A stretch of 64,000 bases of DNA from Pseudomonadota bacterium (GTDB lineage Bacteria > Cyanobacteriota > Vampirovibrionia > Obscuribacterales > Obscuribacteraceae): contig JAJPJO010000115.1 in assembly GCA_021324135.1 (NCBI GenBank), forward strand, positions 1 through 64,000, read 5' to 3'. Made by a program: the position numbers and the translations under genes. Position 1 is the stretch's first letter, and the number at the start of each line of letters is the position of its first letter. The notes under the pieces were generated by a model that was not told where the DNA came from, did no database searches, and saw only the letters and a program-made list of their open reading frames with translations. Positions 2,741-12,883 of the stretch are shown in pieces.

Positions 2741-5700
2741 TCAAGAGACGAGATCGGTTATCTTGCGCATCAGTGGAATGAGTGTATCCGTCTCCGTGCC
2801 ATCAGTGATGGTGACAAGCAGCCCGCCGCCGAAATCGGCAATGACGACGTAGCCTCTTGGAGTTCTGGAGACGACCTGGTGCACCCGCTCATGTCCCATC
2901 TTCTTGGTGACGTGCTCGGTGTTCATGTACACACCCAGTGCCCAGACCCCGATCGATTCGGCATCGACTTCCTCGGGCATCGTGTTGGCGATCAACAGTC
3001 CGTCATGCCCGACGATGACCGAGCCGATAACTTTCTCCTGGCTGCCAATCTCGCTGAGCAAGGTTTGCAGATCCTCGGATGCCTCCAGGGTAAGAATGCG
3101 CATCTTGATGTCTTGCTGGTCGGCAGCGGTAATCTTGCTCAGCTTTTCGATGTCCTTCTGGTCGAGCAGGAATTTTCCGATGGCGGCAATGCGTCCCGAA
3201 CCAGTCTCGGTCACTTCGGCGCTGGCATCGAGTTTGCCGATGCCCTCGATTTTAGGTGGTGGCGCGCTTGGTGGCACATGCGCGACGGCAACCGGTGCGG
3301 CAGGCTCCGGTGGTCGCTGGATCGGCGCTTGCGCCGGTGGCTGCGGTGCGGCGGCAGCGGGGAACTGTCCGTTTGTATTCGGTGCGGCAAAAGGCGCTGC
3401 TATGGGTTGCGGCGCCGGTGCCATCGGCGGTTGTTGCGCCATGCTGTTTTGATTGACTCTGCTATTGGTTTCCTGGACCGGATTGATCAGGACCTTGTCG
3501 AAGAGATTATCCATGTCGCTGTCGTCAACCTGGAATAAGCCGCCGGCGGGCTTGGGCGCGGCAGGCATTTGCGGCGGGGGCAGCGGTGCGGGGGCGGCGG
3601 CAGCCGGCGGTGCTCCCCAGCCACCCGATGGAGGCTGAGCAAAACCGGACGGTGAGCCAAACGGCGGCGCAGCGCCCATTGGAGCTTGTGGTGGCGCAGG
3701 TGGTGCAGGCATTTGTCCGGGCGGCGCCGCACCAGGAGGCATGACGCCTGGAGGTTCTTGCGGCATACCGCCGCCAGGGAATCCGGACGGCATGGTTGGC
3801 GGTGCCATTGCCGGTGGTGCGGGCGGCATCGACGGCGGTGCCGGAGGCATGGAAGGTGCAGCCGGCTGTGCTTGATTTACCGGGATTGATCTTTCATCTA
3901 CACCCATGTTGGCGAAAATCTGATCGACGGCGGCATCATCGAGACTGAATATGCCGCTGTTGGAGCTTCCGCCTGACTGCCTGGGCTTTTCCGGGCTCGG
4001 AAACTGAGGGGCCGGTGGCGCTGCTCCAGGCGGAGTGATGGCGGCCATCTCGCCTGTATTTTTCGCTTGCACGGCTGTAAATCTGGGAGTGCCGTCCGCC
4101 GGCGCTTGCGATGGTGGCGTCCCTGGTGGCGCAAAAGAGATCATGTCCTGCTGAGCCGGAGGTGCCCCCCAGCCCAGTCCTGGCGGAGCGGCTGCTACAG
4201 GCGGGGCGGCTGCCACAGGTGGTGTGGGCGGCAAGTTTTGCATCACTGCCGGTGCCTGAGCGGCTGGTTGCGGAGCGGCCGGTGCCGGCGCACTGTCTTT
4301 GATACCGAGATTCTCGTCGAAAATTTTGTCGATTGCCTGATCGTCGAAGGCTTTTCCGAACAGTCCGGCTTGGGCCGCTGCCGGCTTGGGTGCAGCCGGT
4401 GCGGGCGGAATCGGTGCCGGAGCTGCCGGTGCCGGTGATCCAAATGGTGATGCCGCTGGTGGTGCCGGGGCAGCACCGAAGGCCGGCGGTTGGGGCTCGG
4501 CAGGCGGACTGCCGAAGGGGGAGGCCGGCGGGTTGAATCCTGAAGGGGCAGGTGGAGAGCCGAATGCAGGCGGCGCTGGTTGGGTGGCGGGCGCGTTGAA
4601 GGGAGGAGGGCTGTTGAAGTCGGCAGGCTGACCAAAGGCGGGGGGAGCCCCGAATGAAGGCGGACCGGCGACTGGAGCATCAGCTTGTGGTGCGGGTGCG
4701 GGCGTGGCCATCATTTGCTGAGCCGCTTGAGCGCCGGCTTGCAGTTTCATCTTTTCTTGAATGGGCAAATCCCAGTGACTGTCTGCGCTTGCTTTATCGG
4801 CAAACGGGTTGGCAGCCGCTTGGGCAGCGGGAGTCTGACCCCAGCCCGATGCTCCCGGCGGTTGGCCGAAGGCGGAATCCGGCGTTGAACCACTGATCGA
4901 GGCAGTACCACCGGCGGTGCCAGCGCCGGCAGGCGGCGTGGACCAACCTGGAGGGGCGGCTGGTTCTGGCTGACGCTCTTGAATCGGAGTCTCGAATCGA
5001 CTGGCGTCCGGAGCTGGACCACGTTCTTGAATCGGTTTGTCCCAGCGATCTCCAGCTAATTCGGACATCGGATCGAATGGTGAGGGTGGGGCTGCCGGCG
5101 GTGCGGACGAGGCCAGGGCCGAGTCGCTTGTTTGCGGTGAGAATGCGCGCCATGAGCCGGTTTCCATTTGCTCGGCTTCAATGGACCAGGCGCCTCGATC
5201 GGCCTCACCAGGTTTAACCTCAGTCCATGAGGCTGCCGCTGATGGTGCCCCGGCTGGTGCGCCCCAGCCTGCCGGTGCGGCCGGCGCTTGAGGCTTTTGA
5301 GTCGTCCAGCCCTGATCGCCTGCGCCTTCGGGCCAGCCGGTCTTCTCGGCTTTAGGTGCCGACCAGCCGTCCGCTTGATGGGCTGCTTGTGCGGCAGGTG
5401 CTGCTGCTGCCTGTCCTGGTGGTGTACCCCAGCCTGCTGAAGTTGTCTTCGGAGCGCCCCAACCGGCCGAGTCGCTCTGTGCAGCGGCTTGTGGCGGAGC
5501 ACCCCAACCAGCTGAAGATCCCGACGCCGGCAACCCTCCCCAGCCGGGTGATCCTGCTGAGCCGGGCGAAGCAGGTGCTTGCGCTCCTGGTGTTCCGGTT
5601 GTCATGGCGGCAGCCGGGGAGGCAGGCAGTTGAGATGGGGGCGGAGTGGAGGCTGGCTCTGCAGGCGGCGGGCTTGAGCTTGGCACGCCCCAACCGCTGC

Positions 5701-7861
5701 TTGTCGATGAAGGTGTCCCCCAGCCTTTGTTATCAGCGGCTGGGCTGGGTGTTCCCCAGGATGCATCATTAGTGGGCGATGCTGTTGGCGGTGTGGCAGC
5801 AGCGGGGGATGTGGCAGCGGCGCCTGGGGGTGTGCCCCAACCGCTGTTCTCCGACGCTCCTGGTTTGCCCCAACTGTCCGGTGCAGCCGCCGATGGTGGG
5901 CTCTGATTCCAGCCATCGACAGGCGCGGATGGCGCCGGCGTTGCTGTTGCTGGAGGAGGCGCTTGATTCGCCTGCCCCCAGGATAAATCGGTGCTTGATG
6001 GCGAAGCGGCTGGCCCGCCGCCCCAGGATGGCTGTTGATCTTGTTTCGGCGCTCCCGGCACCCCCCAACCGCTGTCCGAGGCGGCAGCCGGTGCGGGGCT
6101 GGTTTTCGGTGTGTCCCAGGCGCTTGATGTGCCGCTGGTTTGCGAGCGTGGTGCCTGGCCGGGGGTTGCCCATGAAGCAGCGGCTGGATCGCCGCCACCC
6201 CAAGCATTGCCTGACTGTGCCGGTGCTGCTTGAGCGGGATTATCAGTTTCTTGTGTTTTAGCGGGCAAGGCTCCCCATGAGCTGACTGAGCCGCCAGTCG
6301 AGCCACCGCCCCAGTCTAGCGAGGCTGATGGATTTGCCGCCGGTACGTTTTTGCCGCTGGTCTGTCCGTCTTTGGCTGAAGCTGCTGAAGACCAGCCTCC
6401 GCTCTGGAATGGGTCGCTCGGACCTGGACTTCCACCCCAGGCACCGCCAGGCGCGCCTGGACCTGATGATGGGGCGCCGCCCGGCGGCGGAGCGTCGGGC
6501 TGGGCAGTCGGGCTATTCCAGGATGAGTCGCTGGTTGGTGATTTTGTCGATGGTGCCGTCCATGAGGCACCGGGCTGAGGTGATGTCCACGAACCTGAGG
6601 GCGGGGTGGATGGCGTGGGTGCGGGCTGGGCAGGAGCAGCCGGCGAGGGAGTTGATGGCATCGAGCTGGCCCATGAGGCGCCTGGCGTGGCCGATGGCGT
6701 GCCCCAGGGCACGCCGCCGCCTACCGGGCCCGGACCGCTCGGTCCGCCTGCTCCGGCGGGTTCCACCCAGGAGCCGCCTGCTGGAGGCGGACCCCAACCG
6801 GACTCTTCATCGCCCGGATTCGTGCCTTTTGGCGGACGGCTGTCTTTGTCCCAATTGTCTCCACCTGGTGCACCAGGTGGTGCCAGACCGATAGAGCTTC
6901 CCGGGTGCGGTGCCGCGCTTGCCCCGGCAATTGGCGAAGGTCCGCCTGGAGAAGGCGCACCGGGCATGCCCGGTGGTGGAGCGATGCCACCAGGTGGTGG
7001 AGCTGATTGGAAACCGCCGCTGGTCGAGCCTGAGGGTCCTGCAACTGCGCCTGGACCTGGACCGCCAACCGGTGCGCCCCCTGGTGGGAGTGCCGCCGGG
7101 AAGCCGCCACTAGGCCCGCCGCCTGGTCCGCCAGGACCGGCTGCCCAGGGTGCTGCCCCCTGTCCGTCGCCGGCCCATGGGGTCGGGGCTCCGCCTTTGT
7201 TCCATTTGTCTTCACCGCCTCCGGCCGTGCTCATGGAGTCGGTCGTCTCATAGGCGTCATTGACTGATATTTTCTGCGATTCCGATATCTTGCGGCGAAT
7301 TGATTCCGCCAGGGTCAGAGGTGCCCCCTGCTCGAGTTGGCCGCTGCCGCCGGTTTGAATGCCGAATTTCTGACCAAGACCGGTGGTGGTTGATTGAGCT
7401 TCAAAGCCGTCTTTCATCGGCGGAGTGCTTACTGGCGGCCTCAATCGCGACGCCCCCATCTCGTCTTCGTCGCTGGCTGTTTTTCTGCCTTTGACAGCCG
7501 GCCGTTTGGTGGCAAATTCTCCTGCCCCGCCGACCGTCTTCTTGCTCGCGCGCGAAGCGGGAGCGGTGCCGCCTTTCTCTTTTGTGCCGCCAAAAATATT
7601 GGTGACCATATTCAATAAGGACGACTTCTGCTGCGGCAGTTGTTGTTGAACCATTTTGGCGAGCGCTTCTGGATTGGGCGGTGCCAGCTCCTCCGGGAGC
7701 GGCATCTCCTCAGCGCCCTGAATCATCTGGTCTAGCTGGTGCTCAAATTTCGCACACGACTCGCATGTCTCAATATGATCGTCGAGGGAGCCGGCTTCAT
7801 CTGGATCGAGGTCTTCATCGAAGCGGTGTTGGATCTGAAATCTATACTCGTGGCAGCTCAT
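2741..7861 (-). CDS. Giant anti-sigma-like protein: zf-HC2 zinc finger, disordered Pro/Gly/Trp-rich region, C-terminal Roadblock/LC7 domain
   Basis: This 1706-residue protein starts 35 bases after an ECF sigma gene. Residues 1-45 hold the zinc-binding anti-sigma pattern C3-x25-H29-x3-C33-x2-C36 of the zf-HC2/ZAS family, which normally holds an ECF sigma factor inactive. Residues of about 70-1560 are low-complexity Pro, Gly, Ala, Ser and Trp with dozens of GWG/SWG-type motifs, three [WF][DE]xPIQE[RK] motifs (W940, F956, W1030) and three G[LI]F...DD..[IVM]D.[IL]F motifs (near 1172, 1307, 1445). The last 150 residues resemble a Roadblock/LC7 domain (IVGHDGLLIANTMPEEVDAE, then VVIADFGGGLLVTIT), the family of GTPase partners such as MglB. 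No membrane segment is visible, unlike most ECF anti-sigmas, so it should act in the cytoplasm. Function is inferred from architecture and neighbourhood only. Confidence 0.8.
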   Translation of the reverse strand: MSCHEYRFQIQHRFDEDLDPDEAGSLDDHIETCESCAKFEHQLDQMIQGAEEMPLPEELAPPNPEALAKMVQQQLPQQKSSLLNMVTNIFGGTKEKGGTAPASRASKKTVGGAGEFATKRPAVKGRKTASDEDEMGASRLRPPVSTPPMKDGFEAQSTTTGLGQKFGIQTGGSGQLEQGAPLTLAESIRRKISESQKISVNDAYETTDSMSTAGGGEDKWNKGGAPTPWAGDGQGAAPWAAGPGGPGGGPSGGFPAALPPGGAPVGGPGPGAVAGPSGSTSGGFQSAPPPGGIAPPPGMPGAPSPGGPSPIAGASAAPHPGSSIGLAPPGAPGGDNWDKDSRPPKGTNPGDEESGWGPPPAGGSWVEPAGAGGPSGPGPVGGGVPWGTPSATPGASWASSMPSTPSPAAPAQPAPTPSTPPSGSWTSPQPGASWTAPSTKSPTSDSSWNSPTAQPDAPPPGGAPSSGPGAPGGAWGGSPGPSDPFQSGGWSSAASAKDGQTSGKNVPAANPSASLDWGGGSTGGSVSSWGALPAKTQETDNPAQAAPAQSGNAWGGGDPAAASWATPGQAPRSQTSGTSSAWDTPKTSPAPAAASDSGWGVPGAPKQDQQPSWGGGPAASPSSTDLSWGQANQAPPPATATPAPSAPVDGWNQSPPSAAAPDSWGKPGASENSGWGTPPGAAATSPAAATPPTASPTNDASWGTPSPAADNKGWGTPSSTSSGWGVPSSSPPPAEPASTPPPSQLPASPAAAMTTGTPGAQAPASPGSAGSPGWGGLPASGSSAGWGAPPQAAAQSDSAGWGAPKTTSAGWGTPPGQAAAAPAAQAAHQADGWSAPKAEKTGWPEGAGDQGWTTQKPQAPAAPAGWGAPAGAPSAAASWTEVKPGEADRGAWSIEAEQMETGSWRAFSPQTSDSALASSAPPAAPPSPFDPMSELAGDRWDKPIQERGPAPDASRFETPIQERQPEPAAPPGWSTPPAGAGTAGGTASISGSTPDSAFGQPPGASGWGQTPAAQAAANPFADKASADSHWDLPIQEKMKLQAGAQAAQQMMATPAPAPQADAPVAGPPSFGAPPAFGQPADFNSPPPFNAPATQPAPPAFGSPPAPSGFNPPASPFGSPPAEPQPPAFGAAPAPPAASPFGSPAPAAPAPIPPAPAAPKPAAAQAGLFGKAFDDQAIDKIFDENLGIKDSAPAPAAPQPAAQAPAVMQNLPPTPPVAAAPPVAAAPPGLGWGAPPAQQDMISFAPPGTPPSQAPADGTPRFTAVQAKNTGEMAAITPPGAAPPAPQFPSPEKPRQSGGSSNSGIFSLDDAAVDQIFANMGVDERSIPVNQAQPAAPSMPPAPPSMPPAPPAMAPPTMPSGFPGGGMPQEPPGVMPPGAAPPGQMPAPPAPPQAPMGAAPPFGSPSGFAQPPSGGWGAPPAAAAPAPLPPPQMPAAPKPAGGLFQVDDSDMDNLFDKVLINPVQETNSRVNQNSMAQQPPMAPAPQPIAAPFAAPNTNGQFPAAAAPQPPAQAPIQRPPEPAAPVAVAHVPPSAPPPKIEGIGKLDASAEVTETGSGRIAAIGKFLLDQKDIEKLSKITAADQQDIKMRILTLEASEDLQTLLSEIGSQEKVIGSVIVGHDGLLIANTMPEEVDAESIGVWALGVYMNTEHVTKKMGHERVHQVVSRTPRGYVVIADFGGGLLVTITDGTETDTLIPLMRKITDLVS

Positions 7862-7896
7862 TCTACATTTATACCTGCAATTTTATGGGGCGTCTC

Positions 7897-8469
7897 CTAT
7901 CCTCGACCCAGGCACTTTACGATTTGAACTCTCGCTCGAAATAGCGATGCCATTGTCATCTCGACAGATTGGTTTAGAACAATCGAGATTTGATCATAGT
8001 TGAGGTCCAAGTGATGCCTGAGGTAGAAAACCTTTTGCTGATCTTCAGGCAATGAGCCGAGACATCTTTTAATTCGTTGAACTCCAAGCAGAACCGTTGT
8101 TTCCCATTCCATATTTGCCGAGCCGTCAGCAGCCGGATCAATATCTTGCTCGGCTGGCGGGTCCGAATTTTGAGCATGGTATTCGGCACAGGCTTCTACG
8201 ACAAATTGTGATAACCAATCCCAGATAGTCAATTCATTGTCTTTCTTGGGTAAGCCCTGTTTGATTGAGGCAAAAGCGTTTCGAAAAGTGGCGATAGTGA
8301 TCTCTTGAGCATGTTGCGGGCTGCCGGTTGCCAGAAGACCGATCGCATAGACACGTTCTTGATTGACCCAAACAAATTCATTGCGCTTCTCATTGCCGCC
8401 CTTTTTAATGTCTGACAAGACCGAAGCGGCGGACATTGTGAAATTGGTTCGAGAAGGTATGAGAGTCAT
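7897..8469 (-). CDS. ECF-type sigma-70 family factor
   Basis: This 190-residue protein has the size and two-domain layout of an extracytoplasmic-function sigma factor. A helical N-terminal half (AQEITIATFRNAFASI) matches region 2. A C-terminal half has a typical region 4 sequence (GSLPEDQQKVFYLRHHLDLN, then YDQISIVLNQSVEMTMASLFRARV), with the helix-turn-helix expected to read the -35 element. Region 2 is diverged. Gene order sigma then zinc-finger anti-sigma with a 35-base gap supports a cognate pair in one operon. The first ATG at 8469 has no close Shine-Dalgarno sequence (AAGGA is 17 bases away); an internal ATG at 8436 (MSAASVLSD) is an alternative. No autoregulatory promoter could be identified with confidence. 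Confidence 0.78.
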   Translation of the reverse strand: MTLIPSRTNFTMSAASVLSDIKKGGNEKRNEFVWVNQERVYAIGLLATGSPQHAQEITIATFRNAFASIKQGLPKKDNELTIWDWLSQFVVEACAEYHAQNSDPPAEQDIDPAADGSANMEWETTVLLGVQRIKRCLGSLPEDQQKVFYLRHHLDLNYDQISIVLNQSVEMTMASLFRARVQIVKCLGRG

Positions 8470-8886
8470 CGTTGTGTCGCTGTGTTTCCTTAATTGAACT
8501 GAGAATTGAGCTCAAGCACCCGTGGACGAACGCCAGGGGAAACCAGCCCAAGCCGGCCGAGAACGCCGGGGGTTGCCGTGGATTGTGTCGCTTTGCCTGG
8601 TCAACTTTTGATCGTTGGGCTCAGGGCGAGCCACTTGTTTAAGTTTACTTAGCCGCGATATCATCCCTTTTTCGACAACTCACTTTCCCCCATCGAAAGT
8701 AAGTTGCCAGCCGCCTACACGCCTATAATCCAGTTTACATGATTATCAGCTGACCGGGGTCAGCTTGTGTCGGATAACTGGTTGTTTCCTCCTTTTGTCG
8801 AATCTGACCCGATTTCAAGTCGTAACATAGATGTACCACGATTGATTGCTACATATACTGGCAGGCAAGAAAATTAGCGATGACCT
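8470..8886. other. Divergent intergenic region, no gene seen
   Basis: This 417-base gap separates the minus-strand sigma/anti-sigma operon from the plus-strand gene at 8887 and must hold both promoters. Apart from the palindrome at 8748-8765 there is an AT-rich stretch near 8860-8880 (with a TATACT hexamer), but no well-placed -35 partner. No convincing open frame with a ribosome-binding site is present. Confidence 0.5.
8748..8765. promoter_or_regulatory. 18-base near-symmetric palindrome, possible operator
   Basis: The sequence AGCTGACCGGGGTCAGCT has perfect 8-base arms (AGCTGACC/GGTCAGCT) around a GG centre. It lies in the divergent region, about 120 bases before the gene at 8887 and 280 bases before the sigma gene. 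It has no T-tract, so an operator is more likely than a terminator. Confidence 0.4.
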
Positions 8887-9666
8887 GTGCTAAACGATCA
8901 AGTTATGAGTCGATCAAATAAACGCAATCTGCAAATAAAGTGTCTTGATAATGAAGCATTCAATCTTCATTCGGTTGTCTGCGACCCGCGCTCGGCAAGA
9001 CCTTATGACGTCAAAGCCGCTTGCAGCAATATCACGATTAGCACCGAGGGCAAGAAGCCGCCTCTGGATGTGATGTCCCTGGCTGCCTATGTACTGAGCG
9101 GCTATTTTGAATATGCGCACAAGAGCGGGCTTTACAATCGCCAAAAGGATCTCTGGGAGTCGCTGGCCCGCCTCACGTCCTGCAATATCGAGGTGGTTCG
9201 CTCCGACGGGCTTGTGCCGATAAAACTGCCGGCGGTCGATTTGCACTTCCTGAGCCATCAGGGCGATCTCCTCTTGATGGCCAGGCTCGTCAAACCGCAC
9301 AAACGCCTGCAGAGCGATCGGCGCTCACTCTCGTTTTTAAAAAGCTTCATCAGCAGGCTGAGCAAAACGAAGGTCAAGAAACGCACTTTGAGCGGTGCAT
9401 TTATCTGTTATCCCGAGCCGATCGCCAAGAGCGTCATTCAAAAAATGGAGGCGATCGCAGGCAAAAACGATCCGGTCGCTAAATTCGAATCACGCTTGCC
9501 GATGCCCGCTGAAATCACGCTCAACGTTCTCGAGATGTCATATCAAAGCGAGCCGGAAATTGATCCGCCATCCAATGGCGGCGCCGGCGATAATCGCCTG
9601 ATTTATCCTGAAAGCCAGTTGCTGCCAATCAAGCTCGCTTATCCTCCGATCCGGGAAAAGCGCTGA
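8887..9666 (+). CDS. Hypothetical protein, 259 residues
   Basis: I do not recognise this family. The protein has no signal peptide or transmembrane segment. It has a mixed alpha/beta-looking first 140 residues (including LAAYVLSGYFEYAHKSG and VDLHFLSHQGDLLLMARL), a very basic stretch around residues 140-165 (KPHKRLQSDRRS and SKTKVKKRT), and a Pro-rich acidic tail. The start is uncertain: a GTG at 8887 or an ATG at 8905 (MSRSNKRN), neither with a strong ribosome-binding site. It converges on pccB and the pair share a hairpin terminator at 9656-9675. Confidence 0.6.
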   Translation: MLNDQVMSRSNKRNLQIKCLDNEAFNLHSVVCDPRSARPYDVKAACSNITISTEGKKPPLDVMSLAAYVLSGYFEYAHKSGLYNRQKDLWESLARLTSCNIEVVRSDGLVPIKLPAVDLHFLSHQGDLLLMARLVKPHKRLQSDRRSLSFLKSFISRLSKTKVKKRTLSGAFICYPEPIAKSVIQKMEAIAGKNDPVAKFESRLPMPAEITLNVLEMSYQSEPEIDPPSNGGAGDNRLIYPESQLLPIKLAYPPIREKR

Positions 9667-9679: not shown

Positions 9680-11227
9680 TCAAAGCGGTATGTTGCCGTG
9701 CTTTCGGCGTGCCCGCTCAACCCGCTTGCTTGCTTGAGTTCGCAGAGCCTGGCATAAACGCTGCCGCGTCTCGGAAGGAAAAATCACATCATCGATGTAA
9801 CCTTCCTGGCTGGCAATATATGGGTTTGAAAAACGCTCTTTGTATTGTGCCACCAGTTTCGCGAACGCTTTGTCGTCCTTCTCGAGCTCCTTGCGATAAA
9901 GCAAATGCACCGCGCCCTCTGCACCGACGACGGCAATCTCGGCTGTCGGCCAGGCGAAATTGAAATCACCGCCGACATTCTTCGAGCCCATCACATCGAA
10001 AGCGCCGCCATATGCTTTGCGTGTGATCACGGTCAATTTAGGAACAGTCGCCTCGCAGTATGCATACAAGAGTTTGGCGCCATGCTTGATGATGCCGCCG
10101 AACTCCTGCGTCGTTCCAGGCAAATATCCGGGCACGTCTACAAATGTGATGATCGGAATGTTGAAAGCATCGCAAAAACGAACGAAGCGAGCGGCTTTGA
10201 TCGAGGCGTTGATGTCGAGACAGCCGGCCAGGCTCTTGGGCTGGTTGGCCACTATGCCGACGGGATTGCCGTTCAAGCGGGCAAAGCCAACAAGAATATT
10301 GGTTGCATACAAAGACTGGCACTCAAAAAATTCGCCATAATCGAAGATGCGCTCGATCACGCCTCTCATGTCGTAAGGCTTGGCAGGATCGGCCGGGACG
10401 ATGTTATCGAGCCCCTGAGCGTCCGCCGGATTGGCATCATCGCCTACCTCTATATATGGCGGCGGCTCAAGATTGTTGCTGGGCAGATATGAAAGGAGCG
10501 CCCGGGTGAGCTCAAAAGAATCGGCTTCATCGCGAGCCAGGAAGTGGGCCACGCCTGACTTCTTATTATGCACCAGGGCACCGCCGAGATCCTCGAGCGA
10601 AACGTCTTCGCCGGTCACGGTTTTTACAATCTCCGGACCGGTGATGAACATGTAGCTTTGCTTGTCGACCATGATTGTGAAGTCGGTGACCGCCGGGCTG
10701 TAGACGGCACCACCGGCGCAGGCACCATAGACGACAGATATCTGTGGCACCACTCCTGATGCCTTGACGTTGCGATAAAAGATATCGGCGTAACCGGCCA
10801 GGCTCTTCACGCCTTCTTGAATGCGGGCGCCGCCGCTTTCATTGAGACCGATAATCGGACAACCGGATTGATAGGCAAGCTCCATGATTTTGCAAACTTT
10901 ACGCGCGAAAACTTCGCCGAGCGCACCGCCCACGAATGCCGCGTCATGGCTGAAGAGATAAACCGGTCGGTTGTCGATCAGTGCTTGCCCGGTGATCACG
11001 CCGTCGCCGAAAACCCGCTTTTCCTCCATGCCGAAATCGGAGCAATGATGCAGGGCGTACTTGTCGATCTCCATAAAGGAGCCGGCATCGACCAATTGCT
11101 CAATTCGCTGTCTGGCGCTCAGAACGCCCTTCTCGGAGCGTTTTTTCGTTCTCGCCTCTTCCTGCCTTTCAATTTCTTGGCGCAACTCCCTCAATCTGTT
11201 GCTCGGATCAACGCCGGTTGAAGTCAT
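9680..11227 (-). CDS. pccB: Acyl-CoA (propionyl-CoA type) carboxylase beta subunit
   Basis: This carboxyltransferase subunit moves carboxyl from biotin to propionyl-CoA (giving methylmalonyl-CoA) or a related acyl-CoA. At 515 residues it has the full family length, with two crotonase-like halves. Visible motifs include SHDAAFVGGALGE, GLNESGGARIQEGV, YGACAGGAVYSPA and MVDKQSYMFITGPEIV in the first half. The second half has VANQPKSLAGCLDI, FVDVPGYLPGTTQEFGGII, ITRKAYGGAFDVMGSK and AVVGAEGAV, ending in the usual SNPYIA. The start ATG has an AGGAA 9 bases upstream. The biotin-carboxylase/BCCP alpha subunit is not in this window. The gene follows mgtE by only 15 bases, so the two may share a transcript. 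Distinguishing propionyl- from methylcrotonyl- or glutaconyl-CoA specificity is not possible by eye, though PccB is the best fit. Confidence 0.9.
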   Translation of the reverse strand: MTSTGVDPSNRLRELRQEIERQEEARTKKRSEKGVLSARQRIEQLVDAGSFMEIDKYALHHCSDFGMEEKRVFGDGVITGQALIDNRPVYLFSHDAAFVGGALGEVFARKVCKIMELAYQSGCPIIGLNESGGARIQEGVKSLAGYADIFYRNVKASGVVPQISVVYGACAGGAVYSPAVTDFTIMVDKQSYMFITGPEIVKTVTGEDVSLEDLGGALVHNKKSGVAHFLARDEADSFELTRALLSYLPSNNLEPPPYIEVGDDANPADAQGLDNIVPADPAKPYDMRGVIERIFDYGEFFECQSLYATNILVGFARLNGNPVGIVANQPKSLAGCLDINASIKAARFVRFCDAFNIPIITFVDVPGYLPGTTQEFGGIIKHGAKLLYAYCEATVPKLTVITRKAYGGAFDVMGSKNVGGDFNFAWPTAEIAVVGAEGAVHLLYRKELEKDDKAFAKLVAQYKERFSNPYIASQEGYIDDVIFPSETRQRLCQALRTQASKRVERARRKHGNIPL

Positions 11228-11242
11228 CGTGAACGTTCCTTT

Positions 11243-12637
11243 CTATGTGATGTGCGAGCGGAAGTAGTGAACTATCGTCAGGTAAATACTCATCGTCGAT
11301 ACATCGAGCAGGCTGGTTATGAACGGTCCGGAGGCATGGGCCGGATCGATGCGCAAGCGCTGAAAGAGCATGGGCATGAGCGTGCCGATTGAGACGCCGA
11401 CGGTCATTGTAACGACGAGAGAAAAGGCGACCACCAGGCCGAGATTGGTGTGGGAGTGGTGAAGAACCTGGCTAAGCGCATATGTAGCCGTTCCGCACAG
11501 CACGGCGAGCAGCAGTCCGACTTTGACCTCGTGCAATAAATTGCGCGCCATCAATTTGAAATTCAGACTCGAGCGCTCGCGACTGCTGCGAATAATGATG
11601 CAGGTGCTCTGGGTCGCGACACTGCCTGTCACTCCGGAAAGCAGCGGCATGAAAGAAGCGGCTGCCACCGTGTCTCGGATGACGCTGTCGAAGTGTGTAA
11701 TTACGCTGGCGGAGCCGCTCTCGATCAGAAGTGTGGCAATCAGCCAGGGCAGACGCGCGCTGAAGGCCTTGGTGACGTTGTAGCCCAGCTGCTCTTGCGC
11801 CTCTCCGCCTGGTGAGCTGATCCCGGAAGACTGATATATGTCCTCGGTCGCTTCTTCATTGATGACGTCGATGATATCATCGGCAGTGATGATACCGCGC
11901 AACTTGCCCTGATCATCGATGACCGGCAGTGAGAGAAGATCGTAGTGTCCCAGTTTGTCCGCCACTTCTTCCTGATCGTCATGCACGTTTACCGAAATGA
12001 AATCATCATCCATGATCGTTTCAATCATGCATGATGGATCCTCGGTGATCAGATGTTTGACCGTCAGGTGGCCGACGAGCTCATTGACTTCGTTTACCAC
12101 ATAAACATCATAGATGTCTTCCTCGAGATCCTCGTACATCTCGCGCAGGAGAAGCAGCGCCTCGCCCACCGACATCTTCGAGAATACCGAGAGATAGTCG
12201 GTCGACATGATACCGCCAGCCGTATCATGCTCGAAGCTGAGCAACTCGGCCAGATCCTCTTTCGATTCTTGATCAGGTAATTGATTGATGATGGCGTTTA
12301 TCTTTTCGTCGGGCAACTCATAGAGCAGGTCGGCGGCATCATCGGGTGACATGCGGCTGATAATGGCAACGATGCCGATGTCGCCCAGGGAGCGGAGCAG
12401 ATCATTTTGCACGTCACTGTCCAGCTCGGCTAAAACTTCCGAGGCATGATCAAGATCGAGGAGCCGGAAGCAAGCCAGTCTTTCGGGCCCATCCAGTTCG
12501 CTGAGTTGTGATGCCAGGTCGGCGGGATGGAGTTCATTCAAGTACATGCGCAACTTGTGGCGTTGGCCGCTGTTTGCCATCTCCGCCAGCTGATCGCGAT
12601 CGATCCGTTCTTTATCAAGTGTGCCTGTGCTTGCCAT
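11243..12637 (-). CDS. mgtE: Magnesium transporter MgtE
   Basis: MgtE is a dimeric Mg2+ channel of the inner membrane, gated by its own cytoplasmic domains. From the ATG at 12637 the protein has 464 residues, the usual size. It has an N-terminal superhelical domain (RMYLNELHPADLASQLSELD, SPDDAADLLYELPDE), a CBS pair (TVKHLITEDPSCMIE, SLPVIDDQGKLRGIITADDI), then a membrane domain of about five helices with the family motif around MPLLSGVTGSVATQSTCII and VGVSIGTLMPML. The frame stays open 57 codons further upstream (to 12808), but that part has no MgtE similarity and overlaps the rpoD-side spacer, so I took the internal ATG. No clear Shine-Dalgarno precedes it. The pccB gene follows within 15 bases. 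Confidence 0.9.
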   Translation of the reverse strand: MASTGTLDKERIDRDQLAEMANSGQRHKLRMYLNELHPADLASQLSELDGPERLACFRLLDLDHASEVLAELDSDVQNDLLRSLGDIGIVAIISRMSPDDAADLLYELPDEKINAIINQLPDQESKEDLAELLSFEHDTAGGIMSTDYLSVFSKMSVGEALLLLREMYEDLEEDIYDVYVVNEVNELVGHLTVKHLITEDPSCMIETIMDDDFISVNVHDDQEEVADKLGHYDLLSLPVIDDQGKLRGIITADDIIDVINEEATEDIYQSSGISSPGGEAQEQLGYNVTKAFSARLPWLIATLLIESGSASVITHFDSVIRDTVAAASFMPLLSGVTGSVATQSTCIIIRSSRERSSLNFKLMARNLLHEVKVGLLLAVLCGTATYALSQVLHHSHTNLGLVVAFSLVVTMTVGVSIGTLMPMLFQRLRIDPAHASGPFITSLLDVSTMSIYLTIVHYFRSHIT

Positions 12638-12883
12638 ATTGAGGTGGGTTTCCGAAAAGGTGCCAAGCCTAAATTGCTCCGGGCATTCGTTTGATGCAAC
12701 GTCGGGCTGAGAAGTTGCCCGCCTGAGGCGCACGGCTGCCAGCCGCTTGCCGGGCGTGCGCTGGCCCAGAGGAATACATCCAATGCAGGGCGCGCCCCGG
12801 GCAAGCATAGCAATTCGCCCGGCCCGTGCTCAAGACCGATCGTCTCATAAAAACGGGCTGAAATTGGTTTGTCCGACAGCCGA

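Follow-up and report, generated by a model that had tools for sequence, protein, structure and literature searches.

In the window, i.e., the whole 64,000-nucleotide stretch of DNA that was analyzed, which derives from an uncultured Candidatus Obscuribacterales bacterium of the non-photosynthetic Cyanobacteriota, the gene of a protein resembling extracytoplasmic function (ECF) sigma factors is followed by the gene of a giant protein that combines an anti-sigma domain (ASD), a long intrinsically disordered region (IDR) and a Roadblock domain. We postulate, with a probability of roughly 0.45, that this sigma/anti-sigma pair has been repurposed: the sigma-like protein would be an adaptor docked on a Roadblock scaffold, and the output would run via the scaffold. 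As judged from aligned residues, the promoter and core determinants of the sigma-like protein are mostly lost, while its anti-sigma contacts are kept. Both open reading frames of an earlier annotation of this DNA (the original prediction), with their sizes and the 35 nt between them (same strand, sigma-like gene first), are borne out, and the main features are as follows.

7897..8469, minus strand: ECF sigma-like protein, 190 amino acids (aa), anti-sigma contacts apparently kept; -10, core and part of the -35 determinants apparently eroded
2741..7861, minus strand: giant soluble ASD-IDR-Roadblock protein, 1706 aa
7622..7861, minus strand: class I ASD at the N-terminus of the giant (residues 1-80), with zinc ligands C3/H29/C33/C36 and D15
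2810..3067, minus strand: Roadblock/LC7 domain of the giant (residues 1599-1684)

The genomes compared throughout are metagenome assemblies, and the window's own genome is 92% complete with 6% contamination.

ECF homology and altered residues of the sigma-like protein

By profile comparison, the 190-aa protein is homologous to ECF sigma factors over its full length. Pfam recognizes only its region 4 (Sigma70_r4_2, E 2.4e-9); none of the 29 sigma-like members searched matches the Pfam region 2 model (Sigma70_r2), and the 28 region-2 matches in the window's own genome do not include its gene. Full-length ECF models match 29/29 members, as does TIGR02937, with which the window protein itself scores 28.4 bits, below the cut-off of 42.9. 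In a profile search of the PDB, residues 11-187 align with AlgU, RpoE and SigW, and the same three proteins (SigW, AlgU, RpoE) are the best structural matches of the AlphaFold model; many of its best ECF sigma matches are complexes with anti-sigmas. The structure models used here are single chains of moderate confidence (mean pLDDT 82 and 83). The homology extends over sigma2, the linker and sigma4, as in the ECF group (group 4).

To locate the altered positions, we compared 36 members of the family with 26 ECF controls, mostly from one lineage (RpoE, AlgU, SigW and 23 proteins of the lineage to which the family belongs), using RpoE numbering. Q51 is a glutamine in all 26 controls and in none of the members, all of which carry a hydrophobic residue there; the core-binding motif of region 2.2 (D/E-x-x-Q-[DE]-x-F) is not found in the members, and the equivalent of F54 is retained in 35 of them. 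The region around N80, which we take to read the -10 element, has changed character: N80 is an asparagine in 26/26 controls vs 2/36 members (D/E in 31), N84 is N/D in all controls and E/D in 28 members, and the mean net charge of the -10 face (residues 70-92) is +2.7 in the controls and -3.0 in the members. As a set, the -10/melting determinants of regions 2.3-2.4 (RpoE R76, N80, N84 and the basic face) are therefore not retained by the family. At the positions that presumably contact the -35 element (RpoE R171, S172 and R176), K/R occurs at 171 in 25/26 controls and in a single member, most members having methionine; S172 is mostly replaced by alanine, and the equivalent of R176 is invariant (36/36). 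The equivalents of R149 and R178 are likewise arginine in every member, and in RpoE these two residues contact helix 1 of anti-sigma domains (PMC7406223). The loss of one face together with the retention of the other is the pattern expected of a protein kept for ASD binding and not for promoter reading. Hence, where the original prediction saw an ECF sigma factor with controlled release, the ECF homology stands, but it is doubtful that release drives transcription, because the promoter and core residues are eroded and the anti-sigma interface is kept.

It is nevertheless conceivable, though in our view unlikely, that the protein is, in line with the original prediction, a working ECF sigma factor with an unusual promoter, which the giant holds until signals acting at the Roadblock domain or the disordered middle release it toward a regulon. 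Such a sigma factor would account for the full-length homology, for a gene order (sigma, then anti-sigma) known from classical pairs, for the invariant R176 and for the strong constraint on the gene (rough dN/dS 0.07, with dS near saturation, so that this and the other dN/dS values given here are meant as a ranking only); it would have to do so with an acidic -10 face instead of a basic one, with N80 and Q51 lost in nearly all members although every control keeps them, and with R171 and S172 replaced.

Domains of the giant protein

A profile built from 35 orthologous N-termini of the giant aligns over its full length with the RsiW anti-sigma domain (positions 1-80, E 6e-7). The domain assignment rests on this sequence match, because Foldseek searches with the isolated domain gave no significant match (MucA appeared only at rank 5). 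The Pfam zf-HC2 profile scores 17.3 bits on the whole giant, under its cut-off of 22.2, and 23.0 bits, over it, on residues 1-95 alone; it matches 33 of 35 orthologues. Helices are modeled at residues 3-15, 20-32, 34-51, 64-74 and 81-90, and the acidic residue of helix 1 (D15 in the window, hand-aligned with RseA D11) is D/E in 36/36 members. The domain thus fits the four-helix fold with an acidic helix-1 contact to sigma4 that is expected of class I ASDs; as is usual for this class, it is encoded beside its sigma-like gene in all readable relatives, and it also carries the Hx3Cx2C zinc motif, which is optional in the class (H29/C33/C36, plus C3).

The zinc ligands are missing in 7 of the 36 members: six have all three cysteines replaced, and the seventh (G001) has lost H29 and two cysteines. 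On a tree of the sigma-like and Roadblock parts, the zinc label has to change three times, and well-supported branches force two or more of these changes. As the ligands thus disappeared on two or more occasions, the pair can do without zinc; for RsiW, binding that does not depend on zinc has been reported (PMC7406223). The zinc-finger anti-sigma domain of the original prediction is thus present with all four ligands, but zinc as its key feature does not hold, the pair being otherwise intact where the ligands are gone. The repeated loss also makes a redox switch acting via the zinc site unlikely. Moreover, it provides a natural test of the role of zinc in ASDs: the ligands disappeared at least two times, and the domain, its partner and the acidic contact stayed.

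The giant is soluble, as had been proposed. No transmembrane (TM) helix is predicted, and the highest 19-residue hydropathy (1.21) lies within the Roadblock fold; a membrane anti-sigma was therefore rejected, although the paralogue C127 described below does have N-terminal TM helices. The region between the two domains comprises 1461 residues, of which 63% are P/G/A/S and 10% I/L/V/F/Y/C/M, and it contains several repeated motifs and is followed by a conserved segment:

3194..7576, minus strand: disordered P/A/G/S-rich middle (giant residues 96-1556), with many WGxP motifs
4742..5056, minus strand: three W/F-D/E-x-PIQE-R/K motifs (giant residues about 936-1040)
4286..4369, minus strand: GLF..DD..ID.IF..NLG motif, copy 1
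3878..3958, minus strand: GLF..DD..ID.IF..NLG motif, copy 2
3461..3544, minus strand: GLF..DD..ID.IF..NLG motif, copy 3
3068..3193, minus strand: conserved IGKFLLDQKD... segment ahead of the Roadblock fold (giant residues 1557-1598), from the alignment

Depending on which of two patterns is used, the GLF motif occurs in 39-45 copies in 26 complete proteins and in about none after shuffling; within the window's own genome it is confined to the three copies of this giant and one weak match in the TM-anchored C127. The middle evolves under a rough dN/dS of 0.17-0.19. We also considered a chance reading frame on a GC-rich strand, which was rejected given full-length orthologues of the giant in 25 relatives and dN/dS below 1.

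The C-terminal Roadblock domain is recognized by Robl_LC7 (PF03259) with 29.8 bits (cut-off 23, E 4.9e-7) at residues 1599-1684 and in 25/25 orthologous C-termini. It is the most constrained part of the giant, with a mean column identity of 73% vs 59% each for the sigma-like protein and the ASD, and with the lowest rough dN/dS (0.01-0.03, as compared with the values given above for the sigma-like gene and the disordered middle). The original prediction had named a missing zf-HC2 or Roadblock match, a TM helix and unlinked genes as outcomes that would speak against it; each was looked for, and none was found.

Distribution, neighbors and upstream element

The pair is conserved throughout the order. 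Of the 53 genomes that represent the order, 50 contain the sigma-like gene. When 240 genomes sampled across the class were searched, these 50 were the only ones to match, and the 187 from outside the order gave none; the close relatives belong to Candidatus Obscuribacter and Candidatus Obscuribacterales. G007, G062 and G067, the three genomes without the sigma-like gene, lack the giant as well. Five others (G014, G019, G028, G038 and G071) seem to have only the sigma-like gene, and their contigs end inside the giant or near the sigma-like gene. Wherever the locus is readable, the giant comes directly after the sigma-like gene, so the predicted linkage of the two genes holds in all relatives whose contigs permit the test. 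Complete giants, including that of the window, range from 744 to 1845 aa. Extra Roadblock genes lie directly downstream of the giant in two genomes, two in G013 and one in G005 (L171:3660-4493, L172:1912-2733).

Upstream of the pair, two further features were recorded.

8823..8839, minus strand: cis element GTGGTACATCTATGTTA
8887..9663, plus strand: divergent gene of 259 aa, TGLYNRQ family, a conserved neighbor

The element GTGGTACATCTATGTTA, which lies between the two divergent transcription units, recurs in related form upstream of the pair in most loci and genera of the order, at a variable distance (30-490 nt). G002 and G024 have no divergent gene and yet retain the element beside the sigma-like gene, which suggests that it belongs to the sigma-like operon; a promoter, an operator and a leader RNA are candidate roles. 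It does not have the two-box form of ECF-type promoters. We rejected the possibility that it is one site of a regulon, as the own genome contains a single exact copy and near matches are no commoner than those of the reversed pattern. An autoregulated ECF promoter was likewise sought upstream of the pair, and no conserved sequence of the GAAC/CGTC type was found. Both the lack of such a promoter and the form and single exact copy of the element speak against a working sigma factor. Rfam yielded no credible RNA in the leader; the one match scored well under the gathering score of its model. The leader of the sigma-like gene also contains a hairpin, TGGCAACTTACTTTC-GATGGGG-GAAAGTGAGTTGTCG (window about 8673-8709, minus strand); in the nearest relatives (L035, L036 and L037), the arms of the stem differ yet still pair, and the loop, with ATGGGG, is similar.

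Homologues of the divergent 259-aa gene occupy the same place in 32/36 relatives and are present in 47/53 genomes of the order; it is missing from the three genomes without the pair, from G002 and G024 (one genus, in which the pair is kept) and from one genome with a contig end. The protein has an invariant core, H..GL.NR (FxxAHxTGLYNRQ), and searches of Pfam, NCBIfam and the PDB gave no match for it. A profile comparison of this neighbor as another Roadblock protein gave nothing. Beyond it, the upstream neighborhood is conserved in most relatives, with carboxyl-transferase-like and MgtE-like genes (window 9680-11227 and 11243-12808, minus strand), and the genes downstream of the pair, trehalase-like (1409-2719) and CAP-domain (274-1302), are not conserved neighbors.

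Roadblock paralogues, small GTPases and the possible role of the pair

The window's own genome encodes several other Roadblock proteins. C141 (G000, L097:6109-6948), of 279 aa, has an HxxxCxxC-type N-terminus, a short linker and a Roadblock domain, and no sigma gene adjoins it. C127 (G000, L090:2225-5272), of 1015 aa, starts with TM helices, continues with a disordered region that carries LF...D.DIDDIF motifs and ends in a Roadblock domain; relatives such as L174 have two Roadblock domains. C356 is a single Roadblock protein of 125 aa, and C297 joins TPR repeats to a Roadblock-like domain. Other genomes contain ASD-IDR-Roadblock paralogues, with or without zinc ligands, that have no sigma-like gene nearby.

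These paralogues bear on a further explanation, in which the sigma-like protein is a decoy comparable to PhyR: it would compete with a real ECF sigma factor for the ASDs either of further ASD-Roadblock proteins or of classical anti-sigmas, and its capture or release by the giant would shift the amount of free sigma. Sigma mimicry without sigma activity is known from PhyR/NepR (PMC4598750), PhyR structures are among the weak structural matches of the sigma-like model, ASD-Roadblock proteins without an adjoining sigma gene exist in the lineage, and a true ECF sigma factor with a membrane anti-sigma is encoded in the own genome. In the PhyR/NepR/EcfG system, too, a sigma-like domain binds an anti-sigma and is itself no sigma factor, as is predicted here. 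The sigma-like protein described here, however, stands alone and carries neither a receiver nor a switch domain. Its predicted partner is not NepR but a class I ASD; it is invariably accompanied by an ASD protein of its own, and a rival or third-party sigma for these ASDs was not identified. We thus consider the decoy clearly less probable than a working sigma factor.

Three MglA-type GTPases (C300, C123 and C482) are encoded in the own genome, at L091:1212-1799, L092:1208-1828 and L093:909-1625, and C300 matches MglA of known structure (2.8e-65). The GTPase gene at L093 adjoins genes that read as sensor-kinase-like, response-regulator-like and protein-kinase-like. Of the 53 genomes of the order, 50 carry genes of the MglA type, and bacterial Roadblock proteins usually act with small GTPases (PMC4316618). 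The dependence on a GTPase that the original prediction put forward remains an inference, to which these three GTPases and the other Roadblock proteins of the genome add context; the scaffold is probably linked to an MglA-type GTPase.

We therefore return to the repurposed pair and propose how it might operate. The N-terminal ASD of the giant would hold the sigma-like adaptor, which would not initiate transcription; the long disordered middle would present its repeated short motifs to binding partners; the Roadblock domain may dimerize with itself or with other Roadblock proteins of the cell, and could couple the assembly to MglA-type small GTPases, which would place or gather it in the cell. 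A bolder version, which we regard as doubtful, takes the pair out of transcription altogether: the sigma fold would be just a docking partner, and the MglA-controlled scaffold would act as a spatial or condensate regulator.

Several observations weigh against the repurposed pair. The region 4 model superposes on the DNA-bound region 4 of RpoE at 0.7-0.9 A, which, together with the invariant R176, makes some DNA contact possible, and divergent sigma factors may use other residues than those compared here. The MglA genes are unlinked to the locus, linkage being usual for MglB-type regulators that bind or activate an MglA GTPase, and they are present also in the three genomes without the pair, and the best solved relatives of the Roadblock profile are Roadblock proteins not annotated as MglB. 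The points on MglA and MglB would also fit a Roadblock domain that is a dimerization module with no GTPase partner, the giant then gathering the sigma-like protein and the binders of its motifs as a multivalent sink or condensate. This explanation seems to us very improbable, as the very strong constraint on the Roadblock domain suggests more than dimerization, and the usual association of such proteins with small GTPases (PMC4316618) points the same way.

Each of the domains is known; their combination, together with the eroded sigma factor, is to our knowledge new. The pair resembles SigW/RsiW and other class I zinc ASD pairs (RsrA, ChrR, MucA, RseA) in the adjacent genes, sigma first, in the RsiW-homologous ASD (residues 1-80), in the ECF fold and in the presence of the R149/R178-D11 contact on both sides. 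The anti-sigmas of those pairs are mostly membrane-bound or small and soluble; here, the ASD is followed by a long disordered region and a Roadblock domain, the sigma lacks promoter and core determinants, and members of one and the same orthologous family can do without the zinc ligands. We know of no earlier anti-sigma domain joined to a Roadblock domain. A system of anti-sigma, Roadblock and ECF parts was not found in the open-access literature, which is weak evidence since most subscription papers lie outside it; a review of non-canonical ECF sigma factors mentions neither Roadblock nor GTPase, and nothing comparable was found in the open-access literature on sigma-like proteins without DNA binding. 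Among Roadblock systems, the polarity module of Myxococcus (MglA/MglB/MglC/RomR) likewise brings together Roadblock proteins, a partly disordered scaffold, RomR, and the MglA GTPase (PMC12719032), and MglA-type GTPases are present in nearly all genomes considered here; unlike in that module, the Roadblock domain is fused to an ASD and a giant disordered region, MglA is unlinked, and GTPase binding would follow only by analogy. The Streptomyces conservons (CvnA-D) also employ a Roadblock protein in signaling, together with a small GTPase (PMC4316618), whereas the present locus has no kinase, DUF742 or GTPase gene and contains sigma-like and ASD parts instead.

If the proposed role is correct, a sigma/anti-sigma pair conserved across a whole order would no longer serve promoter choice, and it could tie the small-GTPase machinery of bacteria to sigma-type proteins. 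The proposal thus offers a testable claim on relatives of Cyanobacteria that are uncultured and about whose regulation hardly anything is known.

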